Position numbers and translations under genes: made by a program
Assembly: GCA_023818995.1 (NCBI GenBank)
Contig: JAMWDA010000012.1
Coordinates: forward strand, 1 to 17,562
Direction: 5' to 3'
Source: Candidatus Omnitrophota bacterium
GTDB lineage: Bacteria > Omnitrophota > Gorgyraeia > Duberdicusellales > 4484-171
Length of the DNA: 17,562 nt
The notes under the pieces: model-generated
The model's input: the letters and a program-made list of their open reading frames with translations, nothing else
Told to the model about the DNA's origin: nothing
The model's database searches: none
Shown: positions 16,063 through 17,562 of the stretch, piece after piece
How positions within the stretch are numbered: position 1 is the first letter of the stretch
Layout: each line of letters opens with the position of its first letter

Positions 16063-16983
16063 TTATTCTGTAGGTAATGGTGGTTGGGATTGAGTAATGT
16101 AATTAACTATATGGGTTGAGCCTAAACCACATTCAAGTCCTTCGTATTTGACCCACATATAAGGTTCTTTTTTAGTAAACCATAGGTAGGTAGGAGGAAC
16201 CATTGCTTTGGCAACACCGGTTAAGAGTCCAAGGTCAGGAATAATTCTTATCTTGATGGTTTCTATTTTACCTGCGGGTAGTTCCAAGGTTTCCTCACCA
16301 ATAACTTTAATATCTATCTTATAAAGTTTAGGCTCACTGGTTAAAAGATAGTAAGTTTTGTAACCTTCTTCATTTAAATGAGGGATAAATTTTCTTAAGA
16401 AACTTACCATCGTAAAGTCATCAACAGTTTTACCTTTCATAGGGAATGTATTATTTTTTAAGACCTTACCATTAGCATCAGTAGCAGTGTAGAATATTTT
16501 TTCTTTATCATAGTCGTATTTTTTCTCATACTTAATAATTGTTTTACCTGTATTATCAAAAAGAGTATGAATGCTATAATTAGGTAAAAGGAAACCATCT
16601 TTTTCCTCCATTTCCGCCTCTACTGTCCAAGTAATATCCTCGTATTTATCGTAATTGCCTTTACCCGATTGAGTTAGTTTGTATACGGTTTTACCTTCAC
16701 GAATTAGTTTAGTAAATGTAGAAGATAGAGTGGATCTTGGCTCTAATGTTTTCTTGATGAGATAAGTAACCTCACTCTTTTCCTCATCAAATATAAATAA
16801 TGTGGGTGAGAAAGTTGTAGATTCTTTAGGAGTAAGCGAAGATGCTTCTTTTTGTGGAGTAGTTACCTCTTCTTGAATAGAAATTTCACCACTAACTTCT
16901 CCTTCAGAAATTTCTTCTGCTGAAGTTAAATCCACCATTAGAAGCAGACCAACCACCAAAATCAAACATTTTAAACACCTCAT
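16063..16983 (-). CDS. Secreted DUF3108-like protein
   Basis: A 306-residue protein with an N-terminal signal peptide (basic start, hydrophobic core at about residues 6-18, likely cleavage after T-S-A near 22). A low-complexity Glu/Ser/Thr-rich linker follows (about 23-60), then a mostly beta-strand domain. The C-terminal part, with E-T-L-E-L-P-A-G-K-I-E-T-I-K-I and Y-L-W-F-T-K-K-E-P-Y-M-W-V-K-Y-E-G, resembles DUF3108, a periplasmic or outer-membrane-associated beta-rich domain of unknown function. The ATG at 16983 is chosen because AGGAGG (16994-16989) lies five bases upstream; an in-frame GTG at 16989 would overlap that site. It is transcribed divergently from the riboswitch-controlled gene and convergently with the YqaA-like gene, and appears monocistronic. 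Confidence 0.78.
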   Translation of the reverse strand: MRCLKCLILVVGLLLMVDLTSAEEISEGEVSGEISIQEEVTTPQKEASSLTPKESTTFSPTLFIFDEEKSEVTYLIKKTLEPRSTLSSTFTKLIREGKTVYKLTQSGKGNYDKYEDITWTVEAEMEEKDGFLLPNYSIHTLFDNTGKTIIKYEKKYDYDKEKIFYTATDANGKVLKNNTFPMKGKTVDDFTMVSFLRKFIPHLNEEGYKTYYLLTSEPKLYKIDIKVIGEETLELPAGKIETIKIRIIPDLGLLTGVAKAMVPPTYLWFTKKEPYMWVKYEGLECGLGSTHIVNYITQSQPPLPTE

Positions 16984-17018
16984 AACCACCTCCTTTTTTC
17001 TTTAAAATTTTAAAAATT

Positions 17019-17074: not shown

Positions 17075-17104
17075 TTGACAAAAGGTAAATTTATATGGTA
17101 TATA
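17075..17104 (+). promoter_or_regulatory. Sigma-70 promoter of the riboswitch transcript
   Basis: A perfect -35 TTGACA (17075-17080) and a TATATA -10 (17099-17104) are separated by 18 bases. Transcription would start near 17110-17115, about 15-20 bases before the aptamer's closing stem. This is the best promoter in the window and fits a regulated leader RNA. Confidence 0.7.
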
Positions 17105-17128: not shown

Positions 17129-17273
17129 ACATTGAAGCGATAAAGGCAAACCTGCCGTAAGGCAGGGACCCTTATAATTGATTTTCAATTATAAGGCATA
17201 CTTTCCAGGTAAGGAAGGTATGGCAAAGCCGGGGGTCCAAATTTTAGGATAGCCGGGCTACCGAAATCAATGT
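17129..17273 (+). promoter_or_regulatory. GEMM-I (cyclic-di-GMP-I family) riboswitch aptamer with a 53-nt insertion
   Basis: Hallmarks in order: closing stem ACATTGA/TCAATGT (17129-17135 with 17267-17273); AAAGGCAAACC (17142-17152); a hairpin CCTGCC-GTAA-GGCAGG (17151-17166) with a GNRA tetraloop; GAC (17167-17169); GCAAAGCC (17223-17230); a stem-loop with GGA-TA-GCC (17247-17254), the tetraloop-receptor-like strand; and GGGCTACCGAA (17255-17265). In characterised c-di-GMP-I aptamers GAC runs directly into GCAAAGCC. Here 17170-17222 separates them and folds into CCTTATAATTG/CAATTATAAGG (17170-17196) and CATACTTTCC/GGAAGGTATG (17197-17222, one wobble). The position equivalent to Vc2 G20 appears to be G (17145), pointing to c-di-GMP rather than cGAMP, but alignment by eye is approximate. 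It is followed by a terminator, so transcriptional control of the next gene is likely. Confidence 0.8.
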
Positions 17274-17315
17274 ATAGAAAAAGAGGAGATATTTTTTGTT
17301 TAATTTTGATTTTAG

Positions 17316-17355
17316 ACCGAATCGTCTGATTTAAGGTAGACGGTTCGGTTTTTTT
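17316..17355 (+). terminator. Intrinsic terminator, expression platform of the riboswitch
   Basis: The arms ACCGAATCGTCT (17316-17327) and AGACGGTTCGGT (17338-17349) pair over 12 bp with one wobble around a 10-base loop and run into seven T residues (17349-17355). It lies 43 bases after the aptamer and 13 bases before the next possible ATG. Its 5' arm begins with ACCGAA, the same hexamer as in the aptamer core at 17260-17265. Confidence 0.88.
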
Positions 17356-17367
17356 ATTTTTAATGCA

Positions 17368-17562
17368 ATGATTAAAAAATTTAGAAGTGAGGTAGGAGGG
17401 GATTTGTTTCGCGTCCCAATATCTATAGATAAGAGAATAGATATTTGGCTATATAACTTAAGTATGGAGATGAAAATTAACGGTGGGTATAAATTGCCCA
17501 AATCCTTTATTTTACGCGGTCTTATTAATGCTTTTTTAAAGTTAAATATAGATTATAAAAAT
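17368..17562 (+). CDS. Ribbon-helix-helix-like protein, 3' end beyond the window (partial)
   Basis: The frame is open to the window edge: 65 residues from the ATG at 17368. The segment F-R-V-P-I-S-I-D-K-R-I-D-I-W-L (short strand then helix) followed by L-P-K-S-F-I-L-R-G-L-I-N-A-F (second helix) has the pattern of a ribbon-helix-helix (CopG/Arc-like) DNA-binding protein. The family is inferred from pattern only. Two starts are possible. The ATG at 17368 has no Shine-Dalgarno and lies just after the terminator T-run. A TTG at 17404 is preceded by AGGAGGGG (17394-17401), though closely, and begins directly at the conserved segment. The gene sits in the leader-controlled position behind the GEMM-type riboswitch and its terminator, so its expression probably responds to the riboswitch ligand. 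Confidence 0.5.
   Translation, partial: MIKKFRSEVGGDLFRVPISIDKRIDIWLYNLSMEMKINGGYKLPKSFILRGLINAFLKLNIDYKN

Follow-up and report, generated by a model that had tools for sequence, protein, structure and literature searches.

Two hairpins between the C44 and G45 equivalents of class I c-di-GMP riboswitches in Omnitrophota

Results

A GEMM-I leader interrupted by two abutting hairpins

The stretch of DNA analysed here (the window, 17,562 nt) is the whole of one contig of a 1.58-Mb draft genome, and carries on its forward strand a class I c-di-GMP (GEMM-I) leader at 17129-17273. The leader is followed by an intrinsic-terminator-like hairpin of 15 pairs with a U tail (17314-17351), found with a terminator scan, and by a downstream reading frame (17368-17562) of 65 aa that is still open at the contig end. 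A probable promoter was read from the sequence at 17075-17104, with TTGACA at 17075-17080, an 18-nt spacer and a TG-extended TATATA at 17099-17104; it is absent from the list returned by an automatic promoter scan and is identical in alignment with G001, a genome of the same genus. At 90% identity, the orthologous leader of G001 has the promoter, P1, both arms and the terminator in place, with the terminator stem and most of the U tract preserved. On the minus strand of the window lies a divergent gene (16063-16989), the protein of which has a signal-peptide-like start; its homologue in G001 (on L217) is separated from the riboswitch there by about 2.6 kb of other frames.

All blocks of the leader are present and in order, the sole interruption falling between GAC (17167-17169) and GCAAAGCC (17223-17230). 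Sequence and MFE folding place this interruption, 53 nt made up of two abutting hairpins, exactly between the equivalents of C44 and G45. The coordinates given in a preliminary description, in which the GEMM-I blocks were read as split by a 53-nt two-hairpin insert, were confirmed base for base, and the proposed insertion site agrees with the published numbering in the available part of PMC3764141, where C44 and G45 are listed among the highly conserved P2 positions.

The remaining features, all on the forward strand, can be assigned as follows. The 5' strand of P1 (ACATTGA, 17129-17135) pairs in the MFE fold with the 3' strand (TCAATGT, 17267-17273), for which an alternative pairing of 17264-17270 with 17306-17312 exists; both P1 strands are unaltered in the alignment with G001. 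Within GGCAAA (17145-17150), the letters of which are from the sequence and the roles after the partial text of PMC3764141, position 17145 is the G20 equivalent, 17146-17147 (G21-C22) form a strand of lower P2 and the AAA at 17148-17150 belongs to the internal loop. The upper P2 hairpin (CCTGCC-GTAA-GGCAGG, 17151-17166) has 6 bp and a GUAA (GNRA) tetraloop at 17157-17160, as supported by sequence, MFE and a leave-out covariance model (R2, below). In GAC, sequence and the leave-out model make 17169, the final base ahead of the insert, the C44 equivalent. Inserted arm 1 (17170-17196) is a hairpin of 11-12 bp and arm 2 (17197-17222) one of 10 bp, each supported by MFE, the leave-out model and covariation in relatives; read off the alignment, G001 has a G-C to A-T compensatory change in arm 1 and two pairing-preserving changes in arm 2. 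Downstream of the arms, G45-C46 of GCAAAGCC close lower P2 and 17225 is equivalent to A47, the ligand-stacking position (sequence, leave-out model and the excerpted PMC3764141). P3 (17227-17259) was taken from the MFE fold, its unpaired G at 17252 being assigned by position as the G83 equivalent, and ACCG (17260-17263) provides the C92 equivalent at 17261 from sequence and the Rfam alignment, the exact numbering being our own assignment.

The equivalents of the ligand pocket, with roles again as given in the part of PMC3764141 used, are thus present in sequence and alignment (G20 as G17145, A47 as A17225, C92 as C17261), as are the GUAA loop, C44 (C17169), G45 (G17223) and the bulged G83 (G17252), C44 and G45 being 53 nt apart. 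The MFE fold of 17129-17273 yielded P1, P2, P3 and both arms unprompted, at -61.4 kcal/mol (z -7.36), and none of 200 shuffles was as good; the same held for the 53-nt insert by itself (z -8.52, 0 of 200).

Register of P2 and the Rfam models

For covariance model R2, the window and G001 were left out and the other 24 of the 26 split RNAs described in the next section were used. The model found the window once, at 17137-17238, with 58.3 bits and an E-value of about 1e-16 (the E-values of the tool being rough), placed P2 at 17151-17166 and aligned both arms; G001 scored 56.0 bits. The Rfam models behaved differently. RF01051, proposed in the preliminary description as a check, did score above its cut-off (37.7 against 35 bits), but over 17185-17265, where arm 2 has to serve as the entire P2, a misplacement helped by the resemblance of AAGGCATAC at the arm joint to AAGGCAAAC. 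RF03167 gave the best E-value at a loose threshold, with 33.1 bits at 17136-17266 (under its cut-off of 59), and joined the 5' strand of the true P2 and the beginning of its loop to GGAAGGUAU, the 3' strand of arm 2, skipping 53 bases. Both Rfam alignments of the window misplace P2, while the leave-out model supports 17151-17166 as P2. RF01051 passed its cut-off in 13 of the 26 split RNAs and fell below it in the other 13, and the displaced register occurred in two of those that passed, namely the window (L117) and G001 (L118).

These scores raise a different reading, in which the true riboswitch would occupy 17177-17271: arm 2 would be P2, 17177-17184 would pair with 17264-17271 as an alternative P1, and the upstream hairpins would be unrelated leader RNA or a dead half-copy. 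Such a reading has the above-cut-off RF01051 score of the arm-2-as-P2 register behind it, as well as the use of the arm 2 3' strand as P2 by RF03167, the 8-bp alternative P1 that the window sequence allows and the identical shift of the RF01051 match in G001 (L118 1544-1625). As P2, however, arm 2 would have a 6-nt loop with two extra bases and U at the places of G42 and C44, and in G001 two of the eight pairs of the alternative P1 are mismatched, where ACATTGA and TCAATGT are intact. Furthermore, model R2, which had seen neither the window nor G001, listed no window match other than that in the 17151-17166 register, and in other above-cut-off split RNAs (e.g. L110, L120, L121 and L125) the RF01051 match starts from the upstream half. 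The displaced register was accordingly considered very unlikely. The identification of the window element as GEMM-I itself rests on its relatives and on the retained conserved blocks.

Recurrence of the split aptamer in Omnitrophota

A first pattern, in which the insert letters were free over 28-58 nt and which was blind to insert structure, was run on 384 Candidatus Omnitrophota genomes. It gave 29 matches in 28 genomes, against three genomes for the reversed pattern, and 26 of the 29 were judged by eye to be GEMM-I, running on into the GEMM-I 3' half. The other three were rejected as chance matches; a covariance model built from the 26 (R1) gives L135 12 bits, L126 11 bits and L134 no match. 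All 26 inserts fold as two insert-filling hairpins, with at most one loose base before, two between and two after them, as compared with 219 of 5,200 dinucleotide shuffles. In a gap-free stem alignment of the 26, with loops masked and with arm boundaries set by folding, which leans towards pairing, 94.9% of cells were paired against 59.9% in shuffled and at most 50.2% in slid alignments, and double changes were seen in 10 of 10 sampled arm pairs.

R1 had matches in 319 of these 384 genomes, both to split and to unsplit copies. Among the 150 matches listed, 66 were 49-50 nt (unsplit) and 84 were 74-124 nt (split), with none in between, so that split copies number at least 84, in at least 61 genomes and at least 23 family codes. 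Two hairpins were present in all 84 listed split inserts: 11 were among the 26 parsed before, and 73 of the 73 others had two top-level helices, three of them with four to seven loose bases. Both R1 and R2 model two hairpins and favour them. Because R1 could overlook one-hairpin forms, an exact pattern for shorter inserts (7-29 nt) was also run, and it matched one of the 384 genomes (G307), where the 25-nt insert consists of two 4-bp hairpins; no single-hairpin insert was found by exact pattern for 7-29 nt gaps in these genomes.

Long c-di-GMP-I matches in the window genome and its relatives had also been considered as insert carriers. By eye, only the leader of the window qualified out of 52 sequences (matches of at least about 103 nt among those listed, plus those of G000 and two of G001), and the other long ones have their extra length beyond GCAAAG, mostly in P3.

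Distribution and anatomy of the split RNAs

A pattern scan of 84,980 species genomes gave 93 matches in 90 stretches, of which 66 matches in 64 stretches were two-hairpin split aptamers; the 27 dropped were 20 unsplit aptamers with a second downstream GCAAA and seven with a poor P2. Depositor titles were available for 56 of the 64 stretches and name Omnitrophota or Omnitrophus in 45, untitled bacteria in three (L139, L174, L190), Auribacterota in three (L193, L215, L218), Planctomycetales in two (L144, L203), and Elusimicrobia (L200), Tritonobacter (L202) and Dehalococcoidales (L173) in one each, these titles being the depositors' own and some bins possibly misnamed. Viral contigs gave no match to the split pattern.

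For a closer description, 94 non-redundant split RNAs with two hairpins and at most three loose bases were selected, using a parser that demanded GNRA, GRC and GC-AA. They derive from 112 parsed cores, 15 of which failed the filter for two hairpins, loose bases or tail, and three of which were near-duplicates. Seven of the 112 cores were parsed without two helices: in L157, L161, L176 and L232 the parse stops at a premature GC-AAG-like match, and their RNA reads as two hairpins in other parses; L155 and L220 were set aside as chance or unsplit and L115 as tandem read-through.

In the 94, the insert spans 25-75 nt, with arm 1 of 11-45 nt and arm 2 of 12-49 nt, and no loose base stands at the joints in 84. 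The insert is preceded by the triplet GAC in 67 of them and by GGC in the other 27, the base ahead of GC is G in 89, A in four and C in one, and P2 has 6 bp in all 94 (this length was tried first, with 5, 7 and 8 allowed). As C44, G45, A47 and the GNRA loop were largely demanded by the patterns and the parser, their constancy in the relatives is not independent evidence. Arm pairing covered 96.3% of cells against 49.4% after shuffling (maximum 53.7% of 500 shuffles). No sequence is shared by the loops or stems of the arms among the 94, the commonest loop occurring in five RNAs for arm 1 and in four for arm 2; arm 2 has a mild preference for starting with C (65/94) or U (18/94). The 3' motif GYT-CC follows in 85 of the 94 split and 79 of 87 unsplit copies. 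GUAA tetraloops were found in 38/94 split against 11/87 unsplit copies, GAAA tetraloops in 38/94 against 52/87 and an 11-nt-like receptor in 9/94 against 21/87, and as the unsplit sample was unevenly drawn and includes other phyla, nothing is claimed from the difference.

Genomic setting, downstream genes and expression platform

The window genome has nine RF01051 and eight RF03167 matches and seven GGDEF matches. Seven other c-di-GMP-I matches of this genome were read, and none of the seven is split. The unsplit aptamer is the common form there, and the arms are therefore dispensable for the class as such.

Proteins encoded behind split copies (86 of 89 scanned) included seven with the pilin methylation motif (N_methyl) and four response regulators, and those behind unsplit copies (48 of 75 scanned) four and one, respectively, the scan having omitted L174, L222 and L295 among the split and the unsplit from L129 onwards. 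Behind the leader a terminator-like site is present for 67 of the 90 split copies and for 61 of the 87 unsplit ones, as compared with 83 of 450 shuffled split leaders. As downstream genes and terminator rates are similar, split copies look like ordinary class members in their setting.

The downstream frame of the window (17368-17562) has no Pfam match at E 1; its residue pattern prompts the guess that it may encode a small ribbon-helix-helix-like protein, and a weak alignment (hhalign probability 38%, E 3.3e-4) links it to small proteins encoded downstream of five other split riboswitches. Small proteins that share a pattern like RVVTFLNRxELDFLDK and have no Pfam family at cut-off are encoded after the split riboswitches of L122, L144, L152, L241 and L285, and are possibly a lineage-specific protein under c-di-GMP control.

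The P1 fold of the window (-86.4 kcal/mol) and the fold with the alternative helix 17264-17270/17306-17312 (-86.0 kcal/mol) are nearly equal in energy, the two being less close in G001 (-78.7 against -76.1 kcal/mol), and the window terminator forms in both. No anti-terminator emerged, the candidate pairing of CTACC with GGTAG of the terminator loop being lost in G001. A twelve-codon TTG frame (17296-17334), which has a GAGGAG ribosome-binding-like site and overlaps the 5' arm of the terminator, was also dropped, its start being ACG in G001.

Split and unsplit c-di-GMP-I aptamers were also seen in tandem in one leader (L129 62-147, 277-370 and 527-660; L130 1317-1394 and 1465-1588). A compact tandem of two GEMM-I 5' halves occurs in L145, L164, L170, L188, L205 and L221, titled Acetothermia for L145 and Bipolaricaulota for L164 and L205: GCAAACC..GRCGCAAAG is followed by a short spacer and by a second GGCAAACC..GRCGCAAAG, which runs on into a complete 3' half, whereas the first copy seemingly lacks a P3 3' strand of its own, as if nested.

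Discussion

This analysis establishes that two hairpins stand between the equivalents of C44 and G45, that these hairpins stay paired from species to species, that the inserts seen are two-armed, and that the window retains the G20, A47 and C92 equivalents, the GNRA loop and the 3' half. Because dozens of related bacteria carry a two-hairpin wedge at this very position, it appears to be a structure kept in evolution and not an accident. In the preliminary description the arms were taken to be maintained rather than random, and covariation and recurrence in relatives, always as two hairpins, bear this out; its reading of a structurally expanded subclass also gains support, since the search for homologues yielded relatives in which the extra helices covary. 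The window element quite probably belongs to a structural subclass of c-di-GMP-I riboswitches that have a four-way junction in place of the P2 internal loop.

Other origins and roles for the arms were weighed against this reading. Breakage of a riboswitch by a mobile element or an assembly insertion might be suspected because the unsplit form is common in the window genome (seven other matches), but the interruption lies at the same site in many genomes with unrelated insert sequences, G001 differs by pairing-preserving changes, and the window genome holds only short partial matches to the insert among those listed. Since the recurrence was found blind to the insert and the inserts fold as two hairpins throughout (26/26 and 73/73), such breakage is extremely improbable. 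A kinetic spacer, in which the arms would merely add transcription time between the aptamer halves and the pairing would hold the ends together, would fit the free insert length (25-75 nt) and its lack of conserved sequence. One hairpin would suffice as a spacer, yet none was found for 7-29 nt gaps in the 384 genomes, no 51-73 nt element is among the R1 matches listed, and the joints are mostly without a loose base (84/94), which makes a spacer role unlikely.

It has also to be asked whether the arms are a second input, with a protein, an RNA or a second ligand binding arm 1 or arm 2 and modulating the c-di-GMP switch. The recurrence of the arms in at least 61 genomes and at least 23 family codes, though unsplit copies coexist in the same genomes, would suit such a role. 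Against it, there is no conserved loop or sequence (the commonest loops being found in 5/94 and 4/94), arm lengths range over 11-45 and 12-49 nt, and the downstream genes are like those of unsplit copies (N_methyl pilin motif in 7/86 against 4/48). The added sensing or protein-binding module suggested in the preliminary description is thus unsupported so far, and a second input appears distinctly unlikely, somewhat more so than a spacer. Use of a Holliday-like second rod, inserted between two of the most constrained residues of the riboswitch, as a regulated element, for example by switching of stacking conformers coupled to the ligand or as a docking site for a partner, has a slightly better claim than either, and is regarded as a minor possibility.

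For the four-way-junction riboswitch favoured here, the published structure suggests how the arms could be accommodated. According to the portion of PMC3764141 drawn on, P2 and P3 are held parallel through C44, which forms a pair with G83 of P3, and A47 is helped to stack with the ligand by A49, which docks on the G45-C22 pair. In the split RNA, C44 would exit P2 towards arm 1 and arm 2 would return the chain to G45, the two arms, stacked one upon the other, would form a second rod alongside P2, and P2, the tetraloop contact and the C44-G83 pair would stay continuous. Two abutting hairpins would give a four-way junction in which P2 can be one continuous rod, and a single hairpin a three-way joint, a difference in geometry that would explain why arms come as two or none. 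The split RNA would be expected to bind c-di-GMP like its unsplit relatives, and the arms may set the stability, folding order or affinity of the pocket and carry no second signal. The ligand would keep P1 closed; otherwise the free P1 3' strand might pair with 17306-17312, adjoining the terminator (17314-17351) ahead of the downstream frame.

The split RNAs share with c-di-GMP-I (RF01051; Vibrio cholerae Vc2) P1, a GNRA-looped P2, P3, the G20/A47/C92 pocket equivalents and a position in a pre-terminator leader, and differ from it by the additional 25-75 nt, two hairpins between C44 and G45 that convert the P2 internal loop to a four-way junction. The SAM-I and yybP-ykoY riboswitches are built on four-way junctions, and the split GEMM-I resembles them in having helices at a junction, where stacking would be expected. 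From c-di-GMP-I-GGC (RF03167), the model consensus of which is GCGAAG, the window differs by its GCAAAG; by our own reading the defining change of that class is a G at the A47 position, which the window does not have. The cGAMP type of GEMM-I has A at position 20, unlike the window (G17145), and A stands at this place in four of the 94 split RNAs. A key pocket change is noted for the cGAMP type in the part of PMC9481103 consulted, the letter not being given there. The same partial text describes tandem c-di-GMP-I arrays, which the split RNAs resemble in that they can stand beside unsplit copies (L129, L130) but from which they differ in that their extra helices lie inside one aptamer and not adjacent to it. 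No such insert or four-way-junction GEMM-I is described in the literature covered, which comprised titles and opening lines of abstracts together with partial texts of PMC7266159, PMC9481103, PMC3764141 and PMC11218506 and lay outside the founding GEMM motif and variant papers.

The insert separates C44, which makes the P2-P3 contact, from G45, which makes the A-minor contact supporting the ligand-stacking A47 (PMC3764141, partial text). Such a site tolerates 25-75 nt, which in the data searched always take the form of two hairpins, and this amounts to a sharp natural rule of RNA architecture. As a single genome can hold both split and unsplit copies, what a four-way junction does to a ligand pocket is open to direct comparison. 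Finally, about half of the 26 split RNAs escape the Rfam models or are misplaced by them, and the c-di-GMP riboswitches of Omnitrophota are therefore probably under-annotated.
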